A stretch of DNA of 64,000 bases from Rhizobium sp. CB3090 (GTDB lineage Bacteria > Pseudomonadota > Alphaproteobacteria > Rhizobiales > Rhizobiaceae), in assembly GCF_029714285.1 (NCBI RefSeq), contig NZ_CP121664.1, positions 248,001 through 312,000 of the forward strand. Direction: 5' to 3'. Positions 43,797 through 63,591 of this stretch are shown in pieces (within the stretch, counting starts at the first letter, position 1; the number at the start of each line of letters is the position of its first letter). The notes below the pieces were generated by a model. The model did no database searches. It was not told where the DNA came from and was given only the letters and a program-made list of their open reading frames with translations. The translations under genes and the position numbers were made by a program.

Positions 43797-43812
43797 TGTT
43801 CCGGCCCTGACA
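43797..43812. promoter_or_regulatory. NifA upstream activator sequence (kamA-like gene)
   Basis: TGTTCCGGCCCTGACA is a perfect TGT-N10-ACA with its centre about 89 bp upstream of the promoter GG at 43894. Confidence 0.8.
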
Positions 43813-43891
43813 GACACTCTAAAGACGCAGATTCTGTCGACCCCTGCGTAACCACTTCACTTGGCGTCACTTTGCCGGCTTCATCTCATCG

Positions 43892-43908
43892 ACGGTACGC
43901 GGATTGCA
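43892..43908 (+). promoter_or_regulatory. Sigma-54-type promoter for kamA-like gene
   Basis: ACGGTACGCGGATTGCA: GG at 43894-43895 and GC at 43906-43907 with 10 bases between; the -12 half TTGCA is perfect and the -24 half has GGTAC for GGCAC. It is 63 bp before the ATG. Confidence 0.75.
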
Positions 43909-43970
43909 TGGTCATAACAATGAAGCCGTTACGGCCATTGCGTCTCGCGTTCTTTAATTAGAGGCTCTAG

Positions 43971-45095
43971 ATGAAGACCACCCGCACAATTCAAAGTAAG
44001 ACGGATCCGCTCACCAGTTTGGGCCCACGGTTGTCGTCTAAGGTCATAAAGTTCGTTGAGGGCGCGCGTACAGTGACCCGGGGAGAGCTGGAAGCCAACA
44101 ACATCACGCGTTATGGTGTTACAAGATTCTATCGTGAACAGATCATTAACAGTGATTATTACGATCAGCTGAAATTTATCGTGGAGCCCTCATTCAAAGA
44201 GTTCGACAATAATGGCAATTTGGATACCAGTGGTGAGCACGATAACACGGTTGTGCCCGGATTTCAGCACAAGTACTCTCAGACGGGACTGTTGTTGGCA
44301 ACAGACCGTTGCGCTTCGTACTGCCGATATTGCTTTCGAAAACGCATTGTGGGTAAAGACTCAGATGAAATTGCAGCTGACTTAGGGCAAATTGCACAAT
44401 ACATTGAACGTCATCCTGAGATAACGAACGTACTGGTATCGGGAGGCGACCCATTCGTACTCAGCACCAGCAGGCTCCATGAGATTCTTGATCATCTCTT
44501 GCCGTTCCCGCATTTGAAGTCCATTCGTTTTGGCACAAAAGCGCTCGCGTACGCGCCCAAAAGGTTCGAGGATCCCACCTTGGTGACCTTATTCAAACGG
44601 ATTCATGATGCAGGTAAGACTGCGCTCATCGTCACCCATTTTGATCACTTTGGTGAGATCTCAGCAGACGCTGAGCGCAACATCTGCCTCTTGCGTGCGC
44701 AAGGCGTTCAGTTTCTTAATCAGTCCGTGCTCCTGGCTAAGGTCAACGATGATCCCGCGATCTTGGCCGAGACCTTCGCCAGATGTCATCAGATTGGCGT
44801 CCGCCCCTACTATCTCTTCCAGGGTCGGCCGGTGAAAGGTGCGTCGCATTTTCAGGTTCCGCTGCGTCGGGGACTAGAGATTACGCGCGGGATTAACCAA
44901 CGTCTCAGCGGCATCCAAAAGACATTCAAATATATCATGTCGCACTACACGGGAAAGATTGAGATTCTTGACGTTGGAGCCGATGGCCATGTGTACATGC
45001 GATATCATCAAAACAAGGCTCAGGAAAAGATTGGCAAGATATTTTCCCGCCGGTACCTTGAGGGCGCCTGTTGGCTGGACGATTTACCCGCTTAG
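43971..45095 (+). CDS. KamA-family radical SAM aminomutase
   Basis: 374 residues. The radical SAM motif C-x3-C-x2-C is at Cys114, Cys118, Cys121 (CASYCRYCF), followed by VSGGDPFVLSTSRLHEIL, matching lysine/glutamate 2,3-aminomutases. The C-terminal HYTGKIEIL aligns by eye with the GGGGK region whose lysine holds PLP. Such enzymes move the alpha-amino group to the beta carbon, giving beta-lysine, beta-glutamate or beta-arginine; the substrate cannot be chosen from sequence alone. It is somewhat shorter than classic KamA (about 415 residues). Directly behind a full NifA/sigma-54 module and 430 bp before an ATP-grasp ligase gene. Confidence 0.85.
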   Translation: MKTTRTIQSKTDPLTSLGPRLSSKVIKFVEGARTVTRGELEANNITRYGVTRFYREQIINSDYYDQLKFIVEPSFKEFDNNGNLDTSGEHDNTVVPGFQHKYSQTGLLLATDRCASYCRYCFRKRIVGKDSDEIAADLGQIAQYIERHPEITNVLVSGGDPFVLSTSRLHEILDHLLPFPHLKSIRFGTKALAYAPKRFEDPTLVTLFKRIHDAGKTALIVTHFDHFGEISADAERNICLLRAQGVQFLNQSVLLAKVNDDPAILAETFARCHQIGVRPYYLFQGRPVKGASHFQVPLRRGLEITRGINQRLSGIQKTFKYIMSHYTGKIEILDVGADGHVYMRYHQNKAQEKIGKIFSRRYLEGACWLDDLPA

Positions 45096-45527: not shown

Positions 45528-46820
45528 TTGGCATTCGCCCTCGCACCGGTCGGAGTTACGCCAATGACAGAAAGAGCTCTCATTCTAATTGAAGGTAGCA
45601 GAGGTAATGGTCCTCTATATATGAAGGCAGCCGCGCGCCTTGGACTTTATCCCATTACGCTGTCGGCTGATCCAACTCAGTATAATTACCTTGCGGTGGA
45701 ACACGGTGAGGCAATCCGTGCCGACACGGATAATCTAGACGCGATGATCGGCCAGTGTTCCCGATTGAGTGCGTCGTATGACATTGCTGGCATTACCGGC
45801 TTTGCAGGTCGCGATGAATCGGAATATTTGATAATAAGCAATCTTTGCCGCCATTTCGGTTTACCCGGCCCAAATCCTGTCTCCATTGAACAGTGCTACG
45901 ACAAGTTCGCCCAACGGGAACTCCTCGCACAAGCCGGCGTTCCTGTACCTGCTTACCGCCTAGCGACAGGCGCGACTGACATTGAAAGCTCCGCTATAGA
46001 AATCGGTCTGCCAGTAATACTTAAGCCAGTTGTTGGCAGCGGCAGCAGCGGTGTTCGATTGTGCCGCAACCTCGCCGAGTTGACTGAACATACGGACTAT
46101 CTGCTGGGCGGGAAACACGCCTGGCGGTCTTCGCCGAAGATATTGGTCGAAGAATTTGCACAAGGCCCATACTATAGCGTCGACACCATGGGAAATGAGA
46201 TTATTGCAGTCGGTACCGCTGATTTTGGCCGCCCGCCCTATTTCATTGCTCGTGAGTACATTTTCCCGGCGCCCCTGACTGGCCGACAATATGATTGCGT
46301 CGCTGAGATTTCACTACGCTGCTTACGAGCGCTTGGGCTGGGCTGGGGGCCGGCGAACGTTGAATTGCGGTGGACAAAACGTGGCCCGGTCGCCATTGAA
46401 ATCAATCCCCGTCTTCCGGGTTTGGCGACCCCTCGGCTGGTGCTACTCGCGTACGGCGTGGATCTTGTGACTGAGCACATCAAGCTTGTTATCGGCGAGA
46501 AATCGGATTTGCACATAACGCGTTCTCAGGTTGCCGGCGCGCGGTTCCTGGTACCTGACAGCAACGGCATTCTTGATTGGGTCGACGGTGATAAAAGGGC
46601 AGCGGCTGAACTGGGAGTCGCCGAAGTTGAATTGTACGTCAAGCCTAAGGCCGAAATCGTCAGAACGAGTGATTACCGAGACGCGATCGGGCATGTCATC
46701 GCCACCTCACCGCATCACACTCAGACCGAGACAATACTTGAGCGTGCCACAAGCTTAATAACTTGGTCTATTATTCCATTCGCGACCCCTGCCGAACAGG
46801 AACCTATCGGGAACCGATAA
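45528..46820 (+). CDS. ATP-grasp carboxylate-amine ligase (copy 1)
   Basis: 430 residues from TTG 45528, which has GAAGGGAGG 7 bp upstream; ATG 45564 (MTERALILIEGSRG) is the alternative and fits the paralogue better. Blocks: ITLSADPTQYNYLAVE, the pre-ATP-grasp FGLPGPNPVSIEQCYDKFAQR, nucleotide-binding GLPVILKPVVGSGSSGVRL, VEEFAQGPYYSVDTMG and the metal-binding ELRWTKRGPVAIEINPRLPG. The family links a carboxylate to an amine using ATP (dipeptide-type ligases). It is a clear paralogue of the gene at 49422-50711. Same strand as the kamA-like gene. Confidence 0.87.
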   Translation: MAFALAPVGVTPMTERALILIEGSRGNGPLYMKAAARLGLYPITLSADPTQYNYLAVEHGEAIRADTDNLDAMIGQCSRLSASYDIAGITGFAGRDESEYLIISNLCRHFGLPGPNPVSIEQCYDKFAQRELLAQAGVPVPAYRLATGATDIESSAIEIGLPVILKPVVGSGSSGVRLCRNLAELTEHTDYLLGGKHAWRSSPKILVEEFAQGPYYSVDTMGNEIIAVGTADFGRPPYFIAREYIFPAPLTGRQYDCVAEISLRCLRALGLGWGPANVELRWTKRGPVAIEINPRLPGLATPRLVLLAYGVDLVTEHIKLVIGEKSDLHITRSQVAGARFLVPDSNGILDWVDGDKRAAAELGVAEVELYVKPKAEIVRTSDYRDAIGHVIATSPHHTQTETILERATSLITWSIIPFATPAEQEPIGNR

Positions 46821-47007
46821 CCTAATTATCCAGTTTTTGCCACCGGGCGTTGACAACGAGTGCAGAGAGAGATTGGCCTCGGTGGCCGCAGCTGGACATT
46901 CACAGAAGCTGGGGCGCAGGTCCGATCGCGCGGCCGTGATCTTCACAGAAGTGGCTCGGTTTGTCTGAACAGTTCCGGGCGTTTTGCTAAGTAGATTTCC
47001 GCCTCGA

Positions 47008-47836
47008 TTATGCCGCCATCATCATTGGCGTCAGCGCGTTGAAGTAAGCCTGATCCGGTGTCTGCCGGTCAAGGGATGAATGTGGACGTCGGGTATTGTA
47101 AAAGGTCAGATAGCCGCCGATGCCAGCGCGGGCCTCGGACACAGTCTTGTAGGCATGGAGATAGACCTCCTCGTATTTGATCGACCGCCAGAGCCGCTCG
47201 ACGAAGACGTTGTCGCAATGCACCCTTGCCATCCATCGAGACGGCGATCTCAGCCTTCTTCAGCACCGCCGTGAAGTCGATGGGGGTAAACTGCGATCCC
47301 TGGTCCGTGTTGAAGATGTCCGGCTTTCCGTACCGAGCAAGCGCTTTCTCGACTGCCTCTATACAGAAAGCCGTCTCCATCGTGATCGACAGCCGCCACG
47401 ACAGAACCCGACGACTGAACCAATCGACGACAGCGCAGAGATAGACGAAGCCTCGCGCCATTGGGATGTAGCTGATGTCCATAGCCCAAACCTGATTGGG
47501 TCTGGTGACTGCCAGCTTGCGCAGAAGATACGGATAGACCTTGTGACCAGGTGCCGGTTTCGACGTGTTGGGACGACGGTAAATCGCCTCAATGCCCATC
47601 TTCTTCATCAGCGTCGCGACGTGAAGCCGCCCTGTCTGAAGCCCTTCCGCCTTCAAAAGCCCCTGCAACATCCGGCTTCCGGCAAACGGGTAATCGAGAT
47701 GCAGTTCGTCGATCCGCCGCATCAGGGCCAGATCGCCGCCTGACACAGGACGCGGCGAATAATAGACGCTGCCACGACTGAAGCCGAGAAGCTTCGCCTG
47801 GCGGACGACCGACAGTTTGTGCTCGCGATTGATCAT
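47008..47836 (-). pseudogene. IS3-family transposase OrfB, frameshifted
   Basis: The main frame (47836 to about 47215) has MINREHKLSVVRQAKLLGFSRGSVYY, the WAMDISYIPMARGFVYLCAVVDWFSRR block with the first catalytic Asp, and FNTDQGSQFTPIDF with the second. After VSMDGKGA the sequence continues one frame over: CDNVFVERLWRSIKYEEVYL (catalytic Glu) and FYNTRRPHSSLDRQTPDQAY. The shift is at about 47215-47222. The enzyme is therefore broken in the assembled sequence. Confidence 0.88.
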
Positions 47837-48165
47837 TTCTTTCCGCTCAGCAGTCCGGCTTTGCCGAGCGCACCGGATAAAAAATCATTCTCTAACGTCA
47901 GTTCACCAATCTTGGCATGCAGGGTTTTGACATCGACGGTCGGAGCCGCTGGTTCCGCTTTGGCGTCATCACCGAAAACGCCTGTCGCCCCCTCAAGGAG
48001 CTGGTCCTTCCACTGCTTGATCTGATTGCCATGCAGGTCGAACTGCTGGGACAATTCCACCAGCATCTGTTCGCCCCTAATGGCGGCAAGCGCCACCTTC
48101 GCCTTGAAAGCCGGGCTATGGTTCCGGCGCGGTCGTCTCGTCATGGTCTCTCCTGTTCCCGGCAT
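47833..48165 (-). CDS. IS3-family OrfA
   Basis: 110 residues: RPRRNHSPAFKAKVALAAIRGEQMLVELSQQFDLHGNQIKQWKDQL is the helix-turn-helix, and the C-terminal leucine-zipper-like LHAKIGELTLENDFLSGAL precedes the stop. Its end overlaps orfB by 4 bp, the usual IS3 layout. Intact. Confidence 0.9.
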   Translation of the reverse strand: MPGTGETMTRRPRRNHSPAFKAKVALAAIRGEQMLVELSQQFDLHGNQIKQWKDQLLEGATGVFGDDAKAEPAAPTVDVKTLHAKIGELTLENDFLSGALGKAGLLSGKK

Positions 48166-48412
48166 CTAAGCCGAAGTCAGGCAGAAATCCACTTATCCGT
48201 GCTGTCCAAATTTCCCGAGCCAGCTCTTCACCCTCATTACGACATGCTGCCTCAAAGACGTCGAACCCGAAGGCATGGCCTTCTGTCGAAGCTGGCTGGA
48301 CAGCTTGGCTCTTTCGAGCACAAAGGCGATCGCCGAACCTTCACGTTTTCGGAGAGCGCCCGCGCCTGAGAAGAGCTCGATAATGTCAATCATAAGCCAC
48401 GGAGCACGAACG

Positions 48413-49267
48413 TTAAGCCTGCGACACATTGTCGGCACAGATGTCGCAATCAGCCCTATCGCTTGTGGATGGGACAAACCATGTTGATGGCCCTCCGTTC
48501 TCGATAGCGGAAAGCGGGTAGGACCTGGTGCCCTTCGCGATGATCATATTGCAACCGGCATTCATAGTGATCCTCGCTGCCATCAACTTCGTCAGCATGC
48601 CACCTGAACTATGGCGAGAGTGGGAATGAGTGGCCATGGCCTCTATCCGGGGAGTAATTCGTTGCACCTTTGTGATCAGACGGGCCGACGGGTTGTTGTG
48701 CGGATCTTCCGTGAAGAGGCCATCTATATTGGAAAGCAGGATAAGAATGTCGGCCTGCAACAACTCTGCGACATGTGCCGCTAGCTGATCATTGTCGCCA
48801 ACACAGGTCTCGGTCGTTGCAGTCGTGTCGTTCTCATTGATGACGGGAAGGGCGCCAACTTGGAGGATTCGCCGAACCGTTGACCACATATTGATACGGC
48901 GATGTCGGTTGCGTAAATCTTCGCCGGTCAACAGCAACTGGCCGAGGCCAAACCCGAAACGTTTCAAGCTCCGTTCAAAGGCGAGCATGAGCCGAACCTG
49001 ACCAATCGCAGCAGCCGCTTTTCGCTCCTCGTTTTTCAGTGGACTGTCCGAATCATTGAAGTGGTAAGATCCCGCTGCGACTGCACCCGACGTCACGATG
49101 ATCACCTGCTGCCCACGCGCAAAAAATCGGACCACATCTTCTATCATCGTTTCCAGCCAAGGGCCACGAATGTGTCCGGTTTCTCCATCGGCAATCAGTG
49201 CAGAGCCAATCTTCACGACTATACGGTGAGCAGAAAGTAATTGCGCCGCGCTCGTCATTACCGTCAT
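48413..49267 (-). CDS. Glutamate-5-kinase-like amino-acid kinase without PUA domain
   Basis: 284 residues from ATG 49267 (MTVMTSAAQLLSAHRIVVKIGSALI); ATG 49330 would add 21 residues. It follows ProB: VKIGSALIADGETGHIRGPWLE, VIIVTSGAVAAGSYHFN, AAAAIGQVRLMLAFERSL, GQLLLTGEDLRNRHRRINMWSTVRRIL, LPVINENDTTATTE, GDNDQLAAHVAELLQADILILLSNIDGLFTEDP and HSHSRHSSGGMLTKLMAA. The PUA domain of ProB is missing, as in short forms. It phosphorylates a carboxylate, perhaps glutamate or an analogue. No proA gene is adjacent. Downstream of the second ATP-grasp gene (155 bp) on the same strand. Confidence 0.85.
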   Translation of the reverse strand: MTVMTSAAQLLSAHRIVVKIGSALIADGETGHIRGPWLETMIEDVVRFFARGQQVIIVTSGAVAAGSYHFNDSDSPLKNEERKAAAAIGQVRLMLAFERSLKRFGFGLGQLLLTGEDLRNRHRRINMWSTVRRILQVGALPVINENDTTATTETCVGDNDQLAAHVAELLQADILILLSNIDGLFTEDPHNNPSARLITKVQRITPRIEAMATHSHSRHSSGGMLTKLMAARITMNAGCNMIIAKGTRSYPLSAIENGGPSTWFVPSTSDRADCDICADNVSQA

Positions 49268-49421
49268 CAAATGTTGCTCCGTTCGAAATAAACCATATCT
49301 CTCCGATTTCTTCTGGCAAATTAACGACAAGCCGCTCGCAATTGCTCAAGATCGAAAATCGGCATCAGAGTCGATCAGCACCTTTCTTGCTCTTAATTGC
49401 ATGAATATCGACAGTGACGAT

Positions 49422-50711
49422 TTACCCCTTACCTCGAGATACTGAGCCTCTGGGGGAGTTTAACGACCCAGTTTGTTCATCTTGATCAAGGGTAGAAAAT
49501 GGCGTGATCGACCAACCGATTTGCTCGACCGCGTGCTGAAGTATAGCCTTCGTCTGCGCAAAACTGGGTGAAATTGCGATCACATGTCCTATGCGGTCTC
49601 GGTAGTCACCTTTTCGAACGATCGGTGTCTTAGGTTTAACATACAATTTGACCTCTAAGACACCCGGCACGGCAGCCGCTCGACTGTCGCCATTGATCCA
49701 ATCGAGGGTGCCATCACGATTAGGAAGTAGGAACCGCACGGCTGCAGTCTGCAGATAACTTCTGCGCAAGTCCGATTCCCCACCGGTAGCAAGTTTAATG
49801 TGCTCGGTGACAAGATCGACACCGTAAGCTAACTGAATCCGCCGAGGATACGTTCCACCCGCAATACGCGGATTGACTTCAATGACGACTGGGCCACGTT
49901 TTGTCCACCGCAATTCGATGTTCGTCGGCCCCCACCCAAGATGGAGAGCTTTCAGACAGCTTAGCGCCACATCGGAGATACGCTCGTGTTCGTCGTCAGT
50001 CAACGGGGCCGGAAAGATGCTCTCACGAAAGAGAAAATGTGGTGGAGGATCGAATTCAGCGGTACTAATCCCTATGACCTCATTTCCCATTGTGTCGGCT
50101 TCATAAAACGGGCCTTGTGCGAATTCTTCCACCAAGATCTTCGGTGAAGGCCGCCATGTGTGCTTGCCGCCCAACAGATTGGCCGTATGTTCGGCCAACT
50201 CATCGACGTTGCGGCACAGTCGGACACCGATGCTGCCGATTCCGCCGACCGCTGGCTTGACAACGACAGGCAGGCCAATTTCCGCGGCAGAGCTTTCAAC
50301 CTCCGCCCCGTTCGTGGCCAAGCGATAAGCAGGTATCGGAACGCCGGCCTCTGCGAGGAGGCGACGTTGAGTGAATTTGTCGCAGCATCGTTCGATTGAT
50401 ACTGGGTTCGGTCCCGGCAAATTGAAATGCTTACAGAGCTTGCCGACCGTCGCATAGTCCTTCTCCTCGGCGCTGGTAATGCCAACAATTTCATAGGCCT
50501 CACGCAACCGGGAGCATTCGTGGATCAACGCATCAAGATTGTCTGTATCGACCTGGAGTGCTTCGACGCTTCCCATCGCAAGATAGTCGTACTGAGCTGG
50601 ATCGGCCGACAGGGTAATTGGATGAAGGCCTACACTCTCGGCAGCTTGGACGTATTGCTGACCAGTACCGTGTCCGTTGCCTTCAACTAGGATGAGCGCT
50701 CTTCTTGCCAT
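49422..50711 (-). CDS. ATP-grasp carboxylate-amine ligase (copy 2)
   Basis: 429 residues from ATG 50711 (MARRALILVEGNGHGTG), with GGAGGG 10 bp upstream; the ATG at 50729 would overlap that ribosome site. Blocks parallel copy 1: ITLSADPAQYDYLAMG, FNLPGPNPVSIERCCDKFTQR, GLPVVVKPAVGGIGSIGVRL, VEEFAQGPFYEADTMGNE and ELRWTKRGPVVIEVNPRIAGG. The two copies are in opposite orientation, on either side of the IS3 element, and diverge mainly in the segment after VGIT and at the C-terminus. Two ligases could add two different amino groups to one scaffold. Confidence 0.88.
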   Translation of the reverse strand: MARRALILVEGNGHGTGQQYVQAAESVGLHPITLSADPAQYDYLAMGSVEALQVDTDNLDALIHECSRLREAYEIVGITSAEEKDYATVGKLCKHFNLPGPNPVSIERCCDKFTQRRLLAEAGVPIPAYRLATNGAEVESSAAEIGLPVVVKPAVGGIGSIGVRLCRNVDELAEHTANLLGGKHTWRPSPKILVEEFAQGPFYEADTMGNEVIGISTAEFDPPPHFLFRESIFPAPLTDDEHERISDVALSCLKALHLGWGPTNIELRWTKRGPVVIEVNPRIAGGTYPRRIQLAYGVDLVTEHIKLATGGESDLRRSYLQTAAVRFLLPNRDGTLDWINGDSRAAAVPGVLEVKLYVKPKTPIVRKGDYRDRIGHVIAISPSFAQTKAILQHAVEQIGWSITPFSTLDQDEQTGSLNSPRGSVSRGKG

Positions 50712-51007
50712 TGACTGCTGACCCTCCATTGCGTGATGTGCGGCGGCCCGAGTGTATCGGCATCAGGCTTGTCAGCCGCGTATGGCCTCAGACCTGCAGT
50801 GAACGTACCATTCTCAGCGAATTGGGGTCGTAAAGATCTTGTAAATTTTTAGCTGAATCTGGTGCCGTGTCTTGCAGCGTCCGCAAAAGGATGCAGCCGC
50901 TGAAGAGATGCGGACGGTTTCGATGCCAATCATACTATGGGAAACGCGTTACTCCGTTTTGGCGCGGGAAGCATTGTTCGGCTTAGTAATAGCGTTGCAT
51001 GTTTCCT

Positions 51008-51547
51008 CTAGGCCTGATAATGAGCTTGAGAACAATAATCCTCTCGGGATACCTCATAGTATTGAAATAGTTTTCCATTGTCGAAACGATCGTCAACATA
51101 GTGCAGCCCAAACTTTTCTGCCGCCCGCTCTGCCCGGGTATTGCCGTGCGCAATGAAACCAATTACCTTTTCTTTAGTTGAATTTTGTAAGGCGTGCGTG
51201 ATAGCAAAGCGCGCCGCCTCGGGTCCCAGGCCTCGTCCTGCGCCACTTTGGAAAAATGCATAAGCAAATTCAAGGTTAGCGGTATCCCCATACTCCAGCA
51301 GGCCACAGCGACCGATGAAAATCGGACTATCATTGACTTTTTCATAGACTATCCAGAAGCCGAAGCCGCTCTTGCTCCACTGAGCCAAGAACCGATCGAT
51401 CCACTTGTGCACGTCCGCCCTGGTCTGTGGCACGTTGTTAAAGATGGCGTTTTGAACCAGGGGATCGTTGTGCAACTTGTACAATTCCGCCCCATGTTGC
51501 GATTTTAGAGGGGTTAGGATCAAACGTTTGGTCTGACATGCGGTCAT
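51008..51547 (-). CDS. GNAT acetyltransferase, RimJ/RimL-like
   Basis: 179 residues from ATG 51547 with AGGA 8 bp upstream; ATG 51553 is adjacent. The fold is visible: TKRLILTPLKSQHGAELYKLHNDPLVQNAIF, then VHKWIDRFLAQWSKSGFGFWIVYEK, GRCGLLEYGDTANLEFAYAFFQSGAGRGLGPEAARFAI (acetyl-CoA loop) and [14 protein letters not shown]. The family acetylates amino groups of proteins, antibiotics or small metabolites. First gene of the probable minus-strand operon GNAT, ATP-grasp copy 2, glutamate-kinase-like; acetylation of the product or self-protection is possible (inference). Confidence 0.85.
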   Translation of the reverse strand: MTACQTKRLILTPLKSQHGAELYKLHNDPLVQNAIFNNVPQTRADVHKWIDRFLAQWSKSGFGFWIVYEKVNDSPIFIGRCGLLEYGDTANLEFAYAFFQSGAGRGLGPEAARFAITHALQNSTKEKVIGFIAHGNTRAERAAEKFGLHYVDDRFDNGKLFQYYEVSREDYCSQAHYQA

Positions 51548-51586
51548 CAACATTTTCCTGATCTGGCGAGGCTCCAGAGTGCTGCT

Positions 51587-51600: not shown

Positions 51601-52522
51601 ACGAACTACTCTTACCGGCCGAGAACGATGTTCGCCTCCGTAGAGGATCCCGCTCGCACCTGTTACCAGCCATCCTTTCGCCCACTCCAATCTGGAGCCC
51701 GATCGAGTCGATCAGCTGTCTTCCGCACTCTTACATATGGTGGTCGGCTAGGTTAAGTCGCAGAACATTCGATTCATGCACAGACGATGGAGACCAGCTT
51801 GTTGATCTACTGAATCTGCTTGTTTCACATTATTAGTCGGCACAGATGCACGCACCTGCCAAGATCGGTAGGGTTCGGCGGCTGCTTGTAACAAGGAGCT
51901 GTCAAAAGCTCACGCGAATATCAACAGGACTGGCATCGTACTCAACTTTTCGTGCGCATGAACGCCGTCCCTCGTATATAGGCTCCGTAAAAAGGAGAAT
52001 GCCAGCCGAACCCGGTATAGCCGCGGAACAGCAGCGCGAAATTGCACGCGAAATCGTGTGCGGTTACAAACCAATGTCTTCCTATCAGCCAAAGTTCCTT
52101 TGTGACTGCTTTGCTAGCAAATGCGTGGGTGCAGGAGGATTCGCGCGGCGAAACGCGCTGGTCAACGATTTGTGCGTATGGCTGGGGGGAAATTGCGGCG
52201 GGCCGCGGAGGTGTTATTCGGCGATCGTGCAGACATCGTGTCTGAGGGCCGGCAGTGACTAAGAAGTTGCAACAAACTCTCTTTCCGAGGTAGCGGCCAT
52301 CATCTCATCAAATTAGGTGGCGAGCAAGCGGACCGCGCGTCCGGCCATATACGTCGTCTGGATCTGAAATTGAAACAATTGACTCATATATGCTTCATAT
52401 GTATCACATGATGCATATATGCGGCATAGAGCAGCGGCGTGGCAGCAAAAGTGGAGCCCACAAGTTCCGGGCGCGAGCGGTGTGCAGTCTACTCTGACAG
52501 TGACCAAAAATTAGAGGAACCA
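51601..52522. other. Long spacer with an AT-rich repeat region before the catabolic-looking genes
   Basis: About 920 bp with no gene I can support. Near its right end are two copies of CATATATGC (52385-52393 and 52414-52422, 29 bp apart) with further CATATG/CACATG palindromic pieces between them. These may be operator sites for the gene at 52523. Confidence 0.45.
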
Positions 52523-53569: not shown

Positions 53570-53859
53570 TGCGGCCCTATGATCGCCGAGCGGAACTCTG
53601 GCTTCGTTCGGCGATCGGCGATTATGGGGAGTAAGAAAAGGCTGGGCATCTCTTACTGGCTTCGCTGCTACAGCCAACACCTCGGCATTGATTGTATCGG
53701 CTCTGCTCTGTTGGCTGGTCGCTAAAACTATCGGCGATGGAGGACGCGACGATCAAACCGCGCTCCTATCATTGGGCGTTCTCATCGAGGCCGACGGGCG
53801 AAAACTTGACAAATCAACCCGGCCGCCGGGGCGGATCATATGAAAATGCAAGGAACGAT

Positions 53860-55765: not shown

Positions 55766-56001
55766 AATCTCCGAAAAGACGTCGTTACTTGATATCGCCA
55801 AGCAGGGCGTGGAGTTTTCTGCGGAACTCTGTCACTGACGGTGACCATTCGGGACTCGTTTCGCGCGTGCCAGAATGGTCCATCCGGCATCAACTGAGGC
55901 TGCTAAAACAGGCGCCGGCGACAAACGGTGACAAAGGTTCTTGCCGTTATTGTCGTGCGGCAATCCAGCACGCCCGCCGCAAAAAAATTGGAGCCTACAA
56001 A

Positions 56002-57222
56002 ATGAACCAAGGTTGTAGCTCGACGAGCACTCCGCAAAATGACACCCTCTCAGCCTCACATAAATCCACCGCGGGGGAGCAGATCCTAGCCAACGGTGAG
56101 GTTGTCGCGGCAAATCTGTTTGATCCCTCGCCGGAAAACGAGGCAGCGACCCTTCGGAACATCGATAAACTGAAGGGGATCGGTACCCGAAGTATTCAAG
56201 CCGACTCTGGCAAGTCGAAGCCGCTTGAACGGAGCGCGAAGTCGCTCGGCGAAGTCCGCTTTACCGTCAAGCGCAAGGACCATGATCTCGACAGCTATTT
56301 TGCCGAGTATCCGATCGCGAGGATGTTGGTTCTCAAGGACGGAAGCGTTGCATATGAAAGATACGGCCTGGGGAACACCGAGGAAACCCGATGGACCTCA
56401 ATGTCCATCGCCAAGTCGGTGACCTCCACGCTCATCGGTGCCGCAATAAAGGACGGGCTCATTCTGACCGTCCAGGATCCAGTGACGAAGTATCTCCCGG
56501 AGTTGAGGGACACTGTCTACAAGGAGAACACTCTCCAGCATCTCTTACAGATGAGCTCTGGTGTTAAGTGGGACGAATCGACCTACACCGTGAGCGGGGA
56601 TTCCGAGATTTCCCGATATTTTGCACCATTCAATAGTGGGCGGAGCAACGCGATGATGGACCTCATGAAGTCCATAGTCCGGATCGCGGCGCCCGGTGTC
56701 AGAGGTAATTACAATACCGGTGACTACTTTTTGCTGGCGAAAATACTATCCCGAGTAACACATAAGACGACGAGTGATTACCTGTCTGAGAAGATCTGGA
56801 AACCGGCCGGGATGGAAAGAGACGGCTTCTGGCTCCTCGATGCGCCCGATGGGCAGGAACTTGGAGGGACAAGCGCAACGTTGCGCGATTTCGGGCGGCT
56901 CGGTCAATTTATTCTGGACGAAGCGCCCCGGATAGTGCCCGACGGCTGGTTCAACGAGGCGACTGCTCCTGCGTTCGCATTGGATGATGACCTCTACTAT
57001 GGATATGGATGGAAGACGGGGCGTTCATCGGATTACAGTTCCCCGCACGCAATCCTGCCGTTTGGTCACGGCGGCCTCTACGGACAAAAGCTTCACATCG
57101 ACCCGACAAGAAAAATGGTAATTGTTCAATGGGGTGCATTTCCGCCGGTAGCCCCCGATAATGATTCCACCACGCCCTGGAATGCCATCCGGGAGGCTAT
57201 AACGCAGAAAATTGGCTGGTAG
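56002..57222 (+). CDS. Serine hydrolase of the beta-lactamase/6-aminohexanoate-dimer hydrolase type
   Basis: 406 residues from ATG 56002 (GGAG upstream). The S-x-x-K motif is in WTSMSIAKSVTSTLIG, the Tyr of the active site in RGNYNTGDYFLLAKIL, and GHGGLYGQ gives the third box. Other blocks are YERYGLGNTEETRW, VTKYLPELRDT and LLQMSSGVKWDES. This set is typical of NylB-like hydrolases, which cleave linear amides, and of related esterases. The N-terminal 75 residues are not conserved-looking and there is no signal peptide. Downstream of binding protein copy 1; it could hydrolyse the transported amide. Confidence 0.85.
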   Translation: MNQGCSSTSTPQNDTLSASHKSTAGEQILANGEVVAANLFDPSPENEAATLRNIDKLKGIGTRSIQADSGKSKPLERSAKSLGEVRFTVKRKDHDLDSYFAEYPIARMLVLKDGSVAYERYGLGNTEETRWTSMSIAKSVTSTLIGAAIKDGLILTVQDPVTKYLPELRDTVYKENTLQHLLQMSSGVKWDESTYTVSGDSEISRYFAPFNSGRSNAMMDLMKSIVRIAAPGVRGNYNTGDYFLLAKILSRVTHKTTSDYLSEKIWKPAGMERDGFWLLDAPDGQELGGTSATLRDFGRLGQFILDEAPRIVPDGWFNEATAPAFALDDDLYYGYGWKTGRSSDYSSPHAILPFGHGGLYGQKLHIDPTRKMVIVQWGAFPPVAPDNDSTTPWNAIREAITQKIGW

Positions 57223-57612: not shown

Positions 57613-58803
57613 TTACAAAACGGTTTGGCTTTTTAGATCCTTGGGGGATCGTGTTAACACTTCGGGTGTCGCTCCGATAACCACCGTATCGTCCTGCCGG
57701 AAGCCGCCAAGTCCGTAAACATACAAACCAGGCTCGACAGAATAGACCTCGTTCTCGAGCAAGGGGCGGTGGTTAAACGACATGTCTTCAGGATATTCGT
57801 GACACATCAAGCCCATCCCGTGTCCGGTGCGGTGCATGATGTAGTCGCCAAAACCGGCTTTCTCGATCACGGCTTGTGCTGCCGAGTCGATCCCGGATAC
57901 GGGCCTCCCGGCCACGGCCGCTTCAATCCCAGCTTCATTGGCAGCGAGGGCAACTTCGAAGAAGCGCTCCTGCTGGGAATCCGGCTTTCCGCAGAACCAA
58001 GTACGTTCATTCTCCACGACCACTCCGTTGATCCGGGGGATGATCAGATTGATCATCACGTGGCCTTTTTCGAGTGTCGCTCCCGATCGTTTTCCATCTC
58101 CATGCGGAGCCGCCGACGGTGGGCCAGAAATTGACCAGAGGTCGACCAATTGAACGTCCTGCGCTGGAAATCGTCGTGCTGCCTCCTGAGCAAACTCGAC
58201 GCCCATCATCATATCCAATTCCATCAGAAGTCGTCCGGGGCGAATATTCTCCCGGTAGCGTTCCTGCAACCAATCGGTCAAGCCCGCTATTTCTCGCATG
58301 AGCGCGATTTCTTCCGGGTGCTTGACCAATCGACGCGCGCGAAGTTCTTGTGTCTTCGTCAGGAGGAGGACTTCGGGAAGCAGCGCAATTGCCTTCTGCA
58401 GCGGGCCACCACCTGCATCAGTACCAATACGAGCTTTTCCTAAGCCGGCAGCGCGCAGCTTCTCAGCGAGCATTTCCGGCCATTCGCGCACGAGGTACAT
58501 CCGGTTGTTAAGACGCGGATGCTCCGCATAGAAACTTGCATCGGATACCCAAAGGCGCCCGCCTTCGTCTGCATATCGCCAATTGTTGGTCGATAGCTCG
58601 TTAAGGATCACGAAAGGCTCGCCGTTCCTCGGGATGACACACACAATGGGCCGCTCCCATGGGCTGATGTCCGTTTGAAAATTCGTCGTAAACTGGAAGA
58701 ATTCCGTAGTAACGAATGCGAACGCATCCAGACGTTCGCGATCCATCAAGTCCAATAACATCTGGTGACGATATTGACGGACTTCAGTGCTCAAAAATGC
58801 CAT
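57613..58803 (-). CDS. M24-family (creatinase/aminopeptidase P fold) hydrolase
   Basis: 396 residues. N-terminal creatinase domain: YRHQMLLDLMDRERLDAFAFVTTEFFQFTTNF, then VILNELSTNNWRY. C-terminal pita-bread domain: LVKHPEEIALMREIAGLTDW, GHVMINLIIPRINGVVVENERT, HRTGHGMGLMCHEYPED, LLENEVYSVEPGLYVYGLGGFRQDDTVVI. In metallo-M24 enzymes two aspartates occupy the positions that here read N (NLIIP) and E (VENERT), so the dinuclear metal site looks incomplete. This suggests a metal-independent creatinase- or ectoine-hydrolase-like enzyme rather than an aminopeptidase. It would cleave an amide or C-N bond. Confidence 0.85.
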   Translation of the reverse strand: MAFLSTEVRQYRHQMLLDLMDRERLDAFAFVTTEFFQFTTNFQTDISPWERPIVCVIPRNGEPFVILNELSTNNWRYADEGGRLWVSDASFYAEHPRLNNRMYLVREWPEMLAEKLRAAGLGKARIGTDAGGGPLQKAIALLPEVLLLTKTQELRARRLVKHPEEIALMREIAGLTDWLQERYRENIRPGRLLMELDMMMGVEFAQEAARRFPAQDVQLVDLWSISGPPSAAPHGDGKRSGATLEKGHVMINLIIPRINGVVVENERTWFCGKPDSQQERFFEVALAANEAGIEAAVAGRPVSGIDSAAQAVIEKAGFGDYIMHRTGHGMGLMCHEYPEDMSFNHRPLLENEVYSVEPGLYVYGLGGFRQDDTVVIGATPEVLTRSPKDLKSQTVL

Positions 58804-59458
58804 CCAAAACCTCGTTTCATTGATTTAAGCCTTCCTCGGCGCGGTATTGCGCTGGGATCTGTTCAGACGCCAATCCTGATTAGAAATTTCTCACGCAGGA
58901 AGCGCCATCTACGACGATGAAACATATGAGTCACCCGGCTGTCAATGAATCATTTGGAGCAAATATCGCCCTGCGGCGCACCAGCGATTACAGCTCAACA
59001 CAGGCTTTCCTTTGCAACTCATGACGTGAGCAAGCGCCCGAGAAAAGCCGGGTAAAAACCGTGGCATCAAAGTCCATCACGCATGCGGCTCAAGTGCGGC
59101 GCACTTAAGAACCGGTCTTTGGAAGGAACGATTAAATCGTTTAGGAGAGCACATCGGGCATAATACGCTTGGATCATATCTCTCAGTATAAAACATTTGT
59201 TGCAATAAAATTCGTATTGCGCTAGGCATTGCGGCCAGCCGGTAGGGTCCTTGTGGGCATGCCGCTGCCTGGGACTGGTCAGTCGGTTCTCGCCGCCTGG
59301 TTGGTGCAAGGGAGGAATAAAGTCAGCCGCATCGAACACAATCTCCGAGGGGTCAGACACAGGCTTCGGCAATGGAGGTTTGATCCCGGCGAGTGCATCA
59401 CCATGAACCGAACAACCGAATCCCCTTGACGAGCAAGGGAATAACAGAGGGAACGAAA
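58804..59458. other. Divergent intergenic region between M24 and binding protein copy 2
   Basis: 655 bp holding the promoters of both genes. I found no perfect NifA element and no convincing sigma-54 promoter, in contrast to the 43.8-kb region. No gene is supported. Confidence 0.45.
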
Positions 59459-60562
59459 ATGAGTTTTTTGATAAATCGCAGGCACTTCATGCAGGTCACA
59501 TCCTCCGTGATCGCGATCGGTGCGATGTCTTCCGTTTCGGGTCGCGCCGGGGCGGCTTCCGCTGGTGAGTTGAAGGTCAACATGAGCGGCGGCAACTGGG
59601 GAAACGCAGTCATGAAGGCGTATGTCGAGCCTTTCGTGGCGGAGACAGGGGTTAAGGTTACCCCGGTTACGGCGGACTTCTCATCCACGCAGATCGCGAT
59701 GATGGTCGACACGAAAAACGTTTCGGCTGACGTCGTGAACCTCGGTCAGACCAACGTCGACCCGCTGACTGCCAAAGGATATCTGGAGCCGGTCGACTAT
59801 TCCTTGTGGAAGAAGGATGAACTGGAAGCAATTTCTGAATTCGCGAAACACACAAATGGATTTGCTTCCTACGTGTATTCCACAAACATGGTATACAACA
59901 CCAAGAAGTTCCCAGCCGATAAGCCGCGACCTACCACTTGGGCGGAGTTCTGGGACGTGGAAAAATTCCCGGGCGTGCGCTCTCTCTTCACCGGCGAATA
60001 TGGAAATGGCCCATGGGAGGAAGCGTTGCTGGCGGACGGCGTGCCTATGGACAAGCTATATCCGCTGGATGTCGACCGCGTCTTTGCCAGCCTCGACAAG
60101 ATCAAGCCGCATATCCGTAAATGGTGGACCAGCGGTTCTGAAATTCTGCAGATCATGCGCGATAACGTCGCTGACGTTGTGCAGTCCTACGACGGTCGCG
60201 CACTTTCTCTGATCGACGAGGGTGCGCCCATCGAGATCAACCGCAATCAGGCGAAGCTGACGACGGACTTCTGGTGCATTCCCAAGGGCAGCCCAAACAC
60301 CGAGAATGCCCAGAAATTCCTCGAGCTCACCGGCCGCGCCGATCGGCAGGCTGCGTTCGCGGAGTTGATCGGGCAAGGTCCGACGAACAAGAACGCCTAC
60401 AAGACCATACCTGAAAAAATCGGACGAAAGCTTGCGTCGTATCCCGATTACACGGCCTCCAGCTTCGCTCTGAATGCAAAATGGTATGCGGAGACAGGCG
60501 CGGACGGCAAGTCGAACAAAGAGCTGATGGTCCAACGCTGGAACGAGTGGATCCTCCAGTAA
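59459..60562 (+). CDS. ABC transporter periplasmic binding protein, PotD-like (copy 2)
   Basis: 367 residues. Tat-type signal MSFLINRRHFMQVTSSVIAIGAMSSVSGRAGA, then ELKVNMSGGNWGNAVMKAYVEPFVAETGVKV, NMVYNTKKFPADKPRPTTWAEFWDVEKFPG, KPHIRKWWTSGSEILQIMRDNVADVVQSYDGR and AYKTIPEKIGRKLASYPDY. It aligns with copy 1 end to end. Start ATG 59459 has GAGGGAACG upstream. It is the binding protein directly linked to the ABC ATPase and permease genes that follow. Confidence 0.92.
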   Translation: MSFLINRRHFMQVTSSVIAIGAMSSVSGRAGAASAGELKVNMSGGNWGNAVMKAYVEPFVAETGVKVTPVTADFSSTQIAMMVDTKNVSADVVNLGQTNVDPLTAKGYLEPVDYSLWKKDELEAISEFAKHTNGFASYVYSTNMVYNTKKFPADKPRPTTWAEFWDVEKFPGVRSLFTGEYGNGPWEEALLADGVPMDKLYPLDVDRVFASLDKIKPHIRKWWTSGSEILQIMRDNVADVVQSYDGRALSLIDEGAPIEINRNQAKLTTDFWCIPKGSPNTENAQKFLELTGRADRQAAFAELIGQGPTNKNAYKTIPEKIGRKLASYPDYTASSFALNAKWYAETGADGKSNKELMVQRWNEWILQ

Positions 60563-60580
60563 GCCGTTCATCGAACTTCG

Positions 60581-60640: not shown

Positions 60641-60706
60641 ATCTGACGACCTGACTTTTGAGAATGGTGCGCCCGACTGGCGCACTGTTCCTCCTGGAGT
60701 TTCGCA

Positions 60707-61801
60707 ATGACCCTGAACCTGAAAAGTTATCTGCCTGCCGAGGATGAAGTATTGAAGAACCAGCCAGTCGCCACCCAGATAGAATTCTGTAATGTCACGA
60801 AAATGTATGGGGCCGTGGCTGCGGTTAAGGACATCTCGCTTTCCGTATCTCGCGGGGAGTTCCTGACCATTCTCGGCCCAAGCGGTTCGGGTAAAACCAC
60901 AGCCTTGATGCTCCTTGCCGGCTTCACGGCGCCGACGAAAGGCGACATACTCATCGCCGGAAAATCAGTTTCTGAAGTCCCGTCTTACCGGCGCGACCAA
61001 GGCATCGTATTCCAGAGCTATGCCCTTTTCCCGCACCTCACGGTTCACCGCAATCTGGAGTTTCCGCTGGAGATGCGTGGCGTCAAGGCCGCTGACAGGG
61101 CGACGCGGGTCGGCCGAATGCTTGAACGTGTTCGCCTCGGCGAATTTGGCGGCCGTATGCCATCGCAATTGAGTGGTGGTCAGCAGCAGCGCGTGGCCGT
61201 TGCGCGCGCGCTGATTGCCGACCCGCCGATCCTGCTGCTCGACGAGCCGCTTGGCGCATTGGATCGAAATCTGCGCGAACAGATGCAGATTGAAATTAAG
61301 GAACTGCACCGGGAGTTTGGAAAGACGACAATTTGCGTGACCCATGATCAGGAAGAAGCCCTGACCTTGTCGGATCGCATTGTCGTTATGCGAGCCGGTC
61401 AAATCGAGCAGATCGATACGCCCGAGGCTCTCTACGATCGGCCGAAAACGCGCTTTGTTGCCAACTTCCTGGGCGAGGCAAATATTCTCGAAAACACCGA
61501 ATTCAAAGTGGAATCCGACGCCGTGCCTTCTTCCGGCATGGTATCCATGTTGCGGCCCGAACGCATTTCGGTTGGCCGCCGTTCGGCGGCGAGACGCGCA
61601 GATGCGGATCAAAGGCAGGCAGTGTCCGGCACCGTTGAAGACATGATCTACGCCGGCCCCTTGAGAAAATACCGGGTACGTGTCGGAAACACTGTGCTGA
61701 TCGCCCGCGAACATGTCGCCTCCGACCAGGAGGTCTTCCATCCCGGCGATGAGGTTCGTCTCGACTGGCTTCGCTCCGATATCCGCTTTGTCGCGGCGTA
61801 A
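60707..61801 (+). CDS. ABC transporter ATPase, PotA-like
   Basis: 364 residues. Walker A GPSGSGKTT, signature LSGGQQQRVAVARALI, Walker B ILLLDEPLGALD and the switch histidine in CVTHDQEEALTLSDRI are all intact. A TOBE-type domain follows (about 290-364; MLRPERISVGRR, VRVGNTVLIAREH). It powers the importer with the fused permease 17 bp downstream. Family: spermidine/putrescine/iron-type importers. Confidence 0.95.
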   Translation: MTLNLKSYLPAEDEVLKNQPVATQIEFCNVTKMYGAVAAVKDISLSVSRGEFLTILGPSGSGKTTALMLLAGFTAPTKGDILIAGKSVSEVPSYRRDQGIVFQSYALFPHLTVHRNLEFPLEMRGVKAADRATRVGRMLERVRLGEFGGRMPSQLSGGQQQRVAVARALIADPPILLLDEPLGALDRNLREQMQIEIKELHREFGKTTICVTHDQEEALTLSDRIVVMRAGQIEQIDTPEALYDRPKTRFVANFLGEANILENTEFKVESDAVPSSGMVSMLRPERISVGRRSAARRADADQRQAVSGTVEDMIYAGPLRKYRVRVGNTVLIAREHVASDQEVFHPGDEVRLDWLRSDIRFVAA

Positions 61802-61818
61802 GGTGGAGGGCCAGGCAA

Positions 61819-63591
61819 ATGACGACGATTCAAAAACTGCGGTCAAAGCCGATTCTGCTTACGGTGCCGGCCTTCGGTCTGCTGTTTGCGGTATTCGGTA
61901 TACCGATGATCCTTCTGTTCCTGACGAGCTTGAACGCGCCTGCGCTTTCTCTTGTGAATTATGAAGGATTCTTCGCCCAGCGATCCTTCGTCCTGATTCT
62001 GTTTCAAACGTTCAAGATCAGCTTTGTTGCCACGGCAATATGCCTGATCATTGGCTACCCGACTGCATTTCTCATTGCAAATGGGGGACGCGCACGGCCC
62101 ATCCTGATGGTGCTGGTCTTCCTGCCTTGGCTGACAAGCGCTTTGGTGCGCACTTACGCATGGACGGTCGTCCTGGGCGACAGTGGATTGATCAATACCT
62201 TGTTGCTCAATGCGGGCATCATCGAGAGACCACTTTCGCTTATTTACAATCGTTTCGCTGTCTACGTCGGCATGGTGCACATCATGCTGCCGATGATGAT
62301 CTTGCCGCTCATCAGCGTGATGATGGGGATAGACAAATCGTTGATGTCGGCTGCGCGCAGCATGGGTGCGAAGCCGCTCACAGCCTTCTTGCGCGTCTTC
62401 TTTCCGCTGAGTATCCCGGGCATTCGAAGTGGATGCATACTGGTGTTCGTCGTGTGCCTCGGCTTCTATATCACACCGCAAGCATTGGGCGGTCTAGGCG
62501 ACACGATGTTGTCGACCCTCATCAACTCACAGCTTACAACCTCCTTAAACATCGGGCAGACAGCCGCCGCGGCTTTCATTCTGCTTGCGATGGCGGTCCT
62601 GGTTCTTTCGACGGCGGGCGTCAACCTCGCCGGCGCGCACGATCATTCAGGGCAAGCAGACAAGAAGCACCGTCCAAGCAGGCTGTCCTTTGCCGGCGCG
62701 GCGATCCGTCGTCTGAATGAACTTGCCATACCGTATCGAGCCCGCCGCTGGGCGGCCAAGCTCTACCAATCACAACGGGATACGTTTTGGTCGAAGATCC
62801 TCGGTGCAGTCTTCCTTACCCTCGTTATGATCTATCTGCTGGCACCGGGTCTGATCGTCATCGTGATATCCTTCAGTTCGGCAGAGTTTATCGAGTTTCC
62901 GCCAAGAGACGTTTCCCTGCGGTGGTACTACTCGTTCTTTGAAGATCCATCGTGGATCGGAGCTTTGTGGAACAGCTTCCAGTTCGGCGTGATCGTCGCC
63001 GCCGTGTCGACAGTCGTTGGTACATTGGCAGCTTTTGGGTTGAGCCGCTGCGCACCACGTCTTCGCTCGGGTCTGACCATGGTAATTCTGACGCCAATCA
63101 CCTTCCCGATCATCGTAGTCGGCGTAGCCGTCTATCTCGGATTGGCGAGACTTGGCCTAGTGGGAACCAACACCGGAATTATCCTCGGCCAAACCATCGG
63201 CGCGATTGGTTATGTCGTTGTGGTCGTCTTGGCGACTCTGTCAGGGTTTGACCGAAGACTGGAGCAGGCGGCCATGAGCATGCGTGCCGGGCCTGTGCAG
63301 ACCTTCCTACGAGTAACCTTGCCGTTGATCCGCTCCGGCATCATCGGCGGCGCGTTGTTCGCGTTTCTTGCGTCCTTCGATGAGGTCATCATTACGTCGT
63401 TTGTCAGCGGCTATTCGATCCCGACACTCCCTTTGAAGATGTTGGAGAACTTGAAGCAACAGATCGACCCAACGATTGCTGCAGTAGGGTCGTTGCTGAC
63501 ACTGCTACCAATCGTCTGGCTGGTCGCTCTCTACTTCACCCTTTGGCGGGGGCGGAGCAAATTGCAGACCGCGACCGTCGCCGCGACCTGA
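61819..63591 (+). CDS. Fused ABC permease (PotB-PotC type in one chain)
   Basis: 590 residues with two complete permease domains. The first (about 10-275) has the loop SMGAKPLTAFLRVFFPLSIPGIRSG, the EAA motif that contacts the ATPase. The second (about 325-580) has SMRAGPVQTFLRVTLPLIRSG. A basic, soluble linker (HDHSGQADKKHRPSR...) of about 50 residues joins them. About twelve membrane helices are expected. Usually these are two proteins; here one chain provides both halves of the channel. Inner membrane importer with the genes at 59459 and 60707. Confidence 0.93.
   Translation: MTTIQKLRSKPILLTVPAFGLLFAVFGIPMILLFLTSLNAPALSLVNYEGFFAQRSFVLILFQTFKISFVATAICLIIGYPTAFLIANGGRARPILMVLVFLPWLTSALVRTYAWTVVLGDSGLINTLLLNAGIIERPLSLIYNRFAVYVGMVHIMLPMMILPLISVMMGIDKSLMSAARSMGAKPLTAFLRVFFPLSIPGIRSGCILVFVVCLGFYITPQALGGLGDTMLSTLINSQLTTSLNIGQTAAAAFILLAMAVLVLSTAGVNLAGAHDHSGQADKKHRPSRLSFAGAAIRRLNELAIPYRARRWAAKLYQSQRDTFWSKILGAVFLTLVMIYLLAPGLIVIVISFSSAEFIEFPPRDVSLRWYYSFFEDPSWIGALWNSFQFGVIVAAVSTVVGTLAAFGLSRCAPRLRSGLTMVILTPITFPIIVVGVAVYLGLARLGLVGTNTGIILGQTIGAIGYVVVVVLATLSGFDRRLEQAAMSMRAGPVQTFLRVTLPLIRSGIIGGALFAFLASFDEVIITSFVSGYSIPTLPLKMLENLKQQIDPTIAAVGSLLTLLPIVWLVALYFTLWRGRSKLQTATVAAT

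Follow-up and report, generated by a model that had tools for sequence, protein, structure and literature searches.

The subject of this analysis is a 64,000-nucleotide stretch of the genome of Rhizobium sp. CB3090 (hereinafter, the window), namely, bases 248001–312000 of contig C3 (561 kb) of a 6.49 Mb genome represented by four contigs. The window carries a gene of a KamA-family radical S-adenosylmethionine aminomutase (43971–45095, plus strand) together with genes of an EctB-type L-2,4-diaminobutyrate (DABA) aminotransferase and of ATP-grasp amide ligases (the synthesis half), and an adjoining block of hydrolase genes with an ATP-binding cassette (ABC) importer of the opine/gamma-aminobutyric acid (GABA) type (the uptake half). 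The best single explanation of this arrangement is a rhizopine-like pair, in which an amide of DABA or of a beta-amino acid would be made by bacteroids and consumed by free-living kin; it is held tentatively, at slightly less than an even chance. The pairing is preferred chiefly because the two halves are co-inherited and linked and share a DABA theme. That the synthesis half is a NifA-controlled, amide-forming pathway of bacteroids is considered probable.

Joint Inheritance and Linkage of the Two Halves

The distribution of the genes was assessed in 148 genomes of the genus, 65 of which were NifN+ at E ≤ 1e-100; a nifN-type gene at 25597–26988 of the window served as the nif marker. With cut-offs chosen by us (E of 1e-100 for kamA, 1e-160 for the importer permease, 1e-240 for the importer-side aminotransferase, and 1e-140 for EctB), kamA was found in 16 genomes, the permease in 17, and EctB (at least 74% identity) in 24, all of them within the NifN+ set; an EctB match at 54% (G371) was excluded. 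Among the 65 NifN+ genomes, 12 carried both kamA and the permease, four kamA only, five the permease only, and 44 neither (p = 1.9e-6; p from 4e-4 to 0.014 after a crude collapse of lineages). The first-pass annotation of the window had made its proposal of a rhizopine-like system dependent on such co-occurrence, which is thus seen as a tendency with exceptions. The corresponding counts were 16/8/1/40 for EctB and the permease (p = 1.6e-8) and 15/1/9/40 for kamA and EctB (p = 8e-8). The importer-side aminotransferase, picked as a partner after its conservation had been noticed, was present in 18 of the 148 genomes, namely, in all 16 kamA+ genomes, in G353 (NifN+), and in G359 (NifN-). This gives 16/0/1/48 for kamA and the aminotransferase in the NifN+ genomes (p = 2.6e-14), and 12/0/1/48 when four R. 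tropici plasmid copies are dropped. A family-wide search spread evenly over 109 genera found kamA in 3 of 346 genomes, and it was present in 2 of 121 relatives of G165, G165 counted.

In plasmid records, kamA gave 28 matches at E ≤ 1e-60, all but one from rhizobia. The aminotransferase (at least 80% identity) was found in 28 records, 24 of which also carry kamA; the permease (at least 78%) in 17, 16 with kamA; and the C45 hydrolase (at least 60%) in nine, all with kamA. The distance between kamA and the permease was 40 kb or less in 11 of the 14 plasmids measured, out of 16 carrying both (the near-duplicates CP140954 and CP148093 were left out), and that between kamA and the aminotransferase was 41 kb or less in 20 of 24.

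The nearest named plasmid relatives of the window come from nodule Rhizobium strains. In the closest one, pRCCGE532b of Rhizobium sp. CCGE532, the order LuxR, ectB, RpiR, kamA, ATP-grasp, proB, ATP-grasp, GNAT, C45, binding protein is identical except for transposases. In R. tropici CIAT 899, minus-strand kamA, proB, and the second ATP-grasp gene and plus-strand C45, binding protein, ABC, permease, aminotransferase, CMD, and M24 genes fall within ~20 kb, with minus-strand CocE hydrolase, M24, and RpiR genes between the two halves. In S. meliloti ml66, an ATP-grasp–kamA–ATP-grasp group, past which there is an aspartate-semialdehyde dehydrogenase gene, is separated from the permease by ~24 kb and from the aminotransferase by 29 kb. 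R. leguminosarum UPM791 has nifHDKEN, ectB, two ATP-grasp genes, D-Ala-D-Ala-ligase-like, reductase-like, and MFS genes, and then an importer block comprising a permease (59% identity), M20, M24, and M81 genes followed by Lrp (84% to that of C104), a relative of the second aminotransferase (92%), and a relative of the aldehyde dehydrogenase (85%).

Alternatively, the halves may be two separate symbiotic traits that share the plasmid alone, the kamA/ectB/ATP-grasp genes making a bacteroid product and the importer genes scavenging plant or soil amino compounds such as GABA, ectoine-like osmolytes, or homoserine derivatives. This explanation, which we judge rather unlikely, agrees with the existence of GABA- or ectoine-related relatives of the importer and of the eut/doe-like genes and with the fact that large plasmids in S. 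meliloti, S. medicae, and R. leguminosarum carry an aminotransferase of 66–69% identity. It fits poorly with the co-occurrence in NifN+ genomes, with the retention of the importer-side aminotransferase in 16 of 16 kamA+ genomes of the genus, and with the linkage as compared with uniform placement.

Several observations weigh against a strict co-inheritance of the two halves or against the rhizopine-like pairing, the first of them speaking for separate traits: most of the 29 contig loci of kamA show no importer gene within the fetched flank, only L007–L010 having binding-protein and C45 genes (the flank was 10 kb at most and in many cases cut). Three kamA plasmids (two of Bradyrhizobium and one of Mesorhizobium) lack the aminotransferase, and R. 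binae has the permease and the aminotransferase without kamA. In NC_019313 and T1473/T1470, the permease and the aminotransferase are both more than 100 kb from kamA, and in AR07, these distances are 16 kb and 118 kb, respectively. The linkage null, uniform placement on the plasmid, is a weak one, since symbiotic genes cluster. In addition, the DABA enzyme has a published explanation in homoserine and pantothenate metabolism (see below). As for inositol and DHDPS-like families, which we take to be those of the classical mos/moc rhizopine genes, none was found among the scanned cluster proteins; no search was aimed at mos/moc or at the rest of the genome.

Putative NifA-Dependent Promoters

A promoter pair was defined as an exact NifA enhancer (TGT-N10-ACA) with a sigma-54 box (no more than two mismatches to TGGCACN5TTGCW) 70–160 bases downstream. 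The window holds three such pairs, at 4042/4143, at 42015/42118 ahead of an RpiR gene, and at 43797/43893 ahead of kamA, whereas 60 shuffles gave 0.12 on average and never more than one. In the kamA promoter region (43797–43908, plus strand), the enhancer (43797–43812) is exact, and the -24/-12 box (43893–43908), CGGTACGCGGATTGCA, has two mismatches. The RpiR-gene promoter (42015–42133, plus strand; enhancer 42015–42030, box 42118–42133) has none and by this measure ranks first among the NifA/sigma-54 promoters of the window. Thus, of the perfect enhancer and perfect sigma-54 promoter initially ascribed to kamA, the former stands, and the perfect box belongs to the RpiR gene. No promoter pair was found at 45–64 kb of the window, in line with the initial statement that the uptake block has no NifA enhancer, nor in the stretch directly past the window (L048).

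The conservation of the kamA promoter was analyzed in 32 loci (29 genome contigs and three plasmid records) containing kamA relatives of 72–93% identity from Rhizobium, Sinorhizobium/Ensifer, Mesorhizobium, Microvirga, and Bradyrhizobium. A promoter pair was located ahead of kamA, or of an open reading frame (ORF) preceding or fused to it, in 20 of the 32 loci, four of which (L007–L010) are copies of one plasmid type. Six further loci have a box with at most one mismatch without an exact enhancer at the set spacing (in L013, the enhancer is ~207 bases off), and six have neither at threshold, including L003 with an exact enhancer and a three-mismatch box. A pair 2 kb upstream of kamA in L003 and one 3.3 kb upstream in L005, the RpiR promoter, were not counted. 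The background, the 20 pairs included, was 37 pairs in 1139.5 kb of strand (0.032 per kb), which corresponds to a chance expectation of no more than ~4 of 32 loci. Because of this difference, NifA control of kamA across several genera is well supported at the level of promoter motifs. The same footprint supports the induction of kamA in bacteroids that the first-pass annotation had presupposed; the published protein abundance (see below) concerns another KamA paralogue and a Dat orthologue.

Aminomutase and Amide Ligases of the Synthesis Half

The assignment of the kamA-like gene to the KamA family was confirmed. C114, C118, and C121 (the CxxxCxxC cluster motif) and the pyridoxal phosphate lysine K329 are invariant in 12 aligned clade members; these Fe-S cysteines and the lysine are shared with lysine and glutamate 2,3-aminomutases. 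The pair of side-chain aspartates kept in lysine 2,3-aminomutase is replaced here: according to the alignment to the enzyme of known structure (2a5h) and via the KamA of UPM791, Asp293 corresponds to Arg286 and Asp330 to Ser324, both invariant in the 12 members. Asp293 and Asp330 presumably hold the lysine side chain, and in glutamate 2,3-aminomutase, a basic residue (Lys) stands in place of Asp293. The score against TIGR03820 (lysine 2,3-aminomutase) was 170 bits, and the cut-off of 525 was not reached; in general, the protein scores below the cut-offs of all KamA-family NCBIfam models, narrowly for the subfamily model (192.5 versus 199.2) and by far for the equivalogs. A TIGR04368 profile search of the CB3090 genome yielded sub-cut-off matches only. 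The AlphaFold model of KamA (mean pLDDT 45.8) was not used.

From these replacements, we infer that the enzyme is not a lysine 2,3-aminomutase and acts on a substrate other than lysine. Beta-lysine is an unlikely product because both lysine-binding aspartates are lost. Accumulation of beta-lysine or N-acetyl-beta-lysine as an osmolyte was rejected on the same residues; moreover, the GNAT protein of the cluster is of the Acetyltransf_3 type and poorly conserved.

Ten of the 32 loci (L006, at 12244–15054, L011, L014, L016, L017, L020, L024, L027, L034, and L035) have kamA in frame with an upstream condensation domain of a non-ribosomal peptide synthetase (NRPS). These frames of ~900 aa contain a stub resembling the start of an adenylation domain and have no stops (Pfam was run on L006 only); the second His of the HHxxxD motif is gone in 8 of the 10. 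In five Bradyrhizobium loci (L019, L021, L022, L031, and L032), kamA is followed by genes of a gamma-glutamyltranspeptidase and a 7TM_transglut relative, with an ATP-grasp gene as well in four of the five. A nodule expression table excerpted from PMC8632152 lists both bll8232 (lysine 2,3-aminomutase) and bll8231 (gamma-glutamyltranspeptidase) of B. diazoefficiens, which may belong to this clade.

Downstream of kamA are ATP-grasp amide ligase 1 (45528–46820, plus strand; PF13535, PF18603) and, on the minus strand, a ProB-type glutamate 5-kinase-like protein (48413–49330; TIGR01027 250.7 bits, cut-off 186), which has the kinase domain PF00696 only, ATP-grasp amide ligase 2 (49422–50729; PF18603, PF02786), and the GNAT acetyltransferase (51008–51553; PF13302), which is present in L003 and has no match in L007–L010. 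These gene families had been named correctly in the first-pass annotation, which presented them as following kamA in one series. They do not make up one NifA-dependent operon extending from kamA through GNAT because the last three are convergent to kamA and ligase 1 and an IS3-type insertion lies between. The insertion (47069–48165, minus strand; orfA 47833–48165, orfB 47069–47836, recognized from the translations) is outside the system; IS3 family transposase matches span query positions 7947–9229 (window ~46946–48228) in H14 and others.

The LAL_C2 domain (PF18603) scored 55.7 and 60.1 bits in the two ATP-grasp proteins (cut-off 29.4). The solved relatives of ligase 2 include L-amino acid ligases (4wd3, which ranks highest, 3vot, and BacD), among which biotin carboxylases are interspersed. 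Among plasmid relatives of the ATP-grasp protein at E ≤ 1e-60, 97 of 99 belong to Rhizobium, Sinorhizobium, or Mesorhizobium, and two to Azospirillum. The relationship to BacD and other L-amino acid ligases is also what would be expected if the bacteroid product were a host-directed signal or an antimetabolite peptide, following bacilysin/dapdiamide-like logic, with the hydrolases serving self-protection or recycling. The NRPS remnants in frame with kamA, its position ahead of gamma-glutamyltranspeptidase genes in Bradyrhizobium, and MFS or MATE genes near related clusters agree with such a role. Nevertheless, the importer and the aminotransferase/aldehyde dehydrogenase route look nutritional, and this explanation is considered improbable.

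DABA Aminotransferase and Published Data on Bacteroids

The EctB/Dat-type L-2,4-diaminobutyrate:2-oxoglutarate aminotransferase (40401–41675, plus strand; TIGR02407 645.7 bits, cut-off 552) and the RpiR/MurR-type regulator A with the NifA-type promoter (42424–43359, plus strand, probable ATG at ~42466; PF01418, PF01380) lie outside the span initially described and belong to the conserved neighbourhood; relatives of the regulator stand beside kamA in several genera. EctC ectoine synthase (PF06339) had no match in the genome, nor in any control genome searched.

The EctB of the window is 74% identical to a product of the UPM791 symbiotic plasmid that was taken as Dat by its place and annotation, and there it likewise lies near ATP-grasp genes and a related importer block. 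According to excerpts of PMC10228743, Dat is an active DABA aminotransferase, DABA is found in pea bacteroids and is absent in the mutant, and the dat mutant forms smaller nodules and is less competitive. Its authors attribute these effects to the utilisation of homoserine and to pantothenate and discount ectoine, siderophore, and polyamine roles; in the mutant, beta-alanine drops, and DABA relieves pantothenate auxotrophy (PMC10228743). UPM791 differs from the window in that no shared amide enters the published role of Dat and in that its kamA is another paralogue (31% identity).

The drop of beta-alanine and the relief of auxotrophy are the evidence for a purely internal role, in which DABA and beta-amino acids would be osmolytes or pantothenate/beta-alanine precursors of the bacteroid and the importer would serve re-uptake. 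This reading leaves the ATP-grasp ligases and the co-inherited hydrolase/importer block unexplained, ATP-grasp having no occurrence in the main text of PMC10228743, and we find it very improbable.

In Table 2 of PMC7950203, the 50 proteins with the highest numbers of spectra in UPM791 pea bacteroids include a KamA, a D-Ala-D-Ala-ligase-like protein of the ATP-grasp type, and a DABA aminotransferase; they were matched to NZ_CP025505 genes by order and size. This KamA, RLV_1884, is only an analogue of that of the window because it is a different protein (31% identity, D293 kept, D330 changed to Cys), and it was discarded as ortholog evidence. It was also observed that by fixABCX-nifA of UPM791 (L038, 17777–22888), glutamate dehydrogenase, GluTR-like, ATP-grasp, and KamA (31% to that of the window) genes form a parallel cluster on one strand. 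In other rhizobia, diaminobutyrate transaminases msi260 of M. loti (PMC3538637, in excerpt) and Bphy_7266 of P. phymatum (PMC8305402, in excerpt) were reported as NifA-dependent in nodules, the msi260 mutant being fully effective.

Putative Uptake and Degradation Genes

The uptake block begins with a C45 autoproteolytic amidohydrolase (52439–53569, plus strand, start probably 52523; NF040521 224.2 bits, cut-off 85; MGC motif in the translation). Next come an unnamed protein without a Pfam match, GAF-like by eye only (53692–54354, plus strand), which stands beside C45 in R. tropici-type loci and is 83% identical in CIAT 899, substrate-binding protein 1 (54659–55765, plus strand; PF13416), a beta-lactamase/NylB-type serine hydrolase (55684–57222, plus strand; PF00144) whose true start is probably 3' of the ORF start, and an M24 pita-bread hydrolase (57613–58803, minus strand; PF00557). 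Substrate-binding protein 2 (59393–60562, plus strand, probable start 59459), an ABC importer ATPase with a TOBE domain (60707–61801, plus strand; PF00005, PF08402), and a fused double permease (61819–63591, plus strand; PF00528 in two stretches) follow. The families initially reported here (two binding proteins, an importer, and C45, NylB-like, and M24 hydrolases) were upheld with two corrections. The M24 protein is altered at the prolidase metal site: D209, D220, and E327 of 1pv9, presumably the prolidase metal ligands, are replaced by Leu, Glu, and Asp, respectively. In addition, the block does not end at 63.6 kb and goes on through all ~18 kb read beyond the window (L048).

The two binding proteins are paralogs with 62% identity and are nearer to GABA/opine-binding proteins than to most PotD/PotF, both by sequence and by fold. 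Binding protein 2 has among its nearest solved folds the Agrobacterium opine receptors MotA, AgtB, and AttC and the GABA receptor Atu4243, to which it is 26–32% identical; the opine/GABA-type ligand is a putative assignment. A polyamine importer as the default reading was rejected, the spermidine/putrescine proteins PotD/PotF scoring well below the opine/GABA receptors. Binding of putrescine only, which the first-pass annotation had named as speaking against its proposal, is likewise not what the sequences and folds suggest.

Including the stretch past the window, the block comprises an opine/GABA-type importer, RpiR, class-III aminotransferases, hydrolases, and an aldehyde dehydrogenase and is akin to ectoine/DABA catabolism. 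One cluster holds M24 EutD-like, M20 DoeB-like, and EutC-like proteins, Lrp, a class-III aminotransferase, and an aldehyde dehydrogenase, families shared with the ectoine utilisation system (eutABCDE/doeABCD). Unlike that system, the EutD-, DoeB-, and EutC-like proteins of the block score below the NCBIfam cut-offs: against the EutD/DoeA equivalog (cut-off 613 bits), proteins of this replicon scored 547.9 and 410.9, whereas a true EutD (816) is encoded by another contig, C2. In L048 (11910–12892), a PALP (EutB-like) gene is split into two overlapping frames. The serine hydrolase of Rhizobium sp. CCGE532 (L003, 28943–30153) looks broken because the match falls in four separate pieces.

Proposed Pathway and Known Systems

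In the rhizopine-like pair as proposed, NifA would activate kamA and the preceding RpiR gene in nodules. KamA would turn a non-lysine amino acid, whose side chain is probably acidic or polar, into a beta-amino acid, and EctB/Dat would convert aspartate semialdehyde to L-2,4-diaminobutyrate. The ATP-grasp ligases would couple such building blocks into a small amide, with the ProB-like kinase perhaps giving glutamyl activation. The amide would leave by nodule breakdown or export, and free-living kin would import it via the opine/GABA-type ABC importer. The C45, M24, EutD-like, and DoeB-like hydrolases may cut it, and the class-III aminotransferases and aldehyde dehydrogenase may process the pieces, in a repurposed DABA/ectoine route under RpiR/Lrp control. 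The initial idea of a system analogous to rhizopines and built on a beta-amino acid amide or dipeptide instead of an inositol derivative is retained in that the gene families fit an amide of a non-protein amino acid; beta-lysine as a product is not supported.

The classical rhizopines are inositol derivatives of restricted occurrence, so that the question of how free-living kin are rewarded by bacteroids that may not reproduce themselves has long been open. A co-inherited pair for making and eating an amide would be a second, chemically different answer to this question and would amount to a private food source or signal of a new type, passing from nodule bacteria to their free-living relatives or serving both. 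Such a pair would also offer a reason for the abundance of DABA aminotransferase, KamA, and ATP-grasp proteins in UPM791 pea bacteroids. More broadly, several rhizobial genera may run a second, peptide-type class of rhizopines, in which bacteroids invest fixed nitrogen in a NifA-driven DABA or beta-amino-acid amide, built by a KamA of new specificity together with rhizobial ATP-grasp ligases, that is edible only to carriers of a co-inherited opine-type importer and a repurposed ectoine-degradation route; this is a speculative extension on which we lean towards doubt.

The mos/moc system of L-3-O-methyl-scyllo-inosamine in Sinorhizobium/Rhizobium resembles the locus in NifA-type control of the synthesis gene, linked and co-inherited uptake/degradation genes, and restriction to symbiosis. 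It differs in its inositol chemistry, whereas amino-acid/amide families occur here and the compound and its use are predicted. Passages on mocDEF and rhizopines are contained in PMC3538637. Homology to mos/moc was discarded, as no such family was among the scanned cluster proteins; the system would work like a rhizopine pair, yet it is not a member of the mos/moc family. Predicted non-ribosomal peptide operons of symbiotic or pathogenic bacteria, described in excerpts of PMC2922099, share with the locus ATP-grasp or condensation-domain ligases, a diaminobutyrate transaminase, and periplasmic binding proteins. However, their hallmark is a methionyl-tRNA synthetase paralogue or else an oxygenase-cupin protein, and these excerpts contain no occurrence of rhizobia or KamA. 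Titles and abstract openings of the open-licence literature gave no account of such a kamA/importer pair.

Other Features of the Region

A LuxR-family regulator with an autoinducer-binding domain is encoded upstream of ectB (39074–40156, plus strand; PF03472, PF00196) and adjoins ectB in several rhizobia. A reverse-transcriptase ORF (33945–35117) adjoins IS66 and ISL3 transposase genes. The promoter pair at 4042/4143 (4042–4158) has two mismatches. In addition, at 529–650, 8373–8493, 13363–13469, and 19682–19801, a NifA enhancer precedes a -24 box of the TGGCAT type whose -12 element reads TTTGAA or TTTGGA, which suggests that these four sites are reiterated nif promoters.

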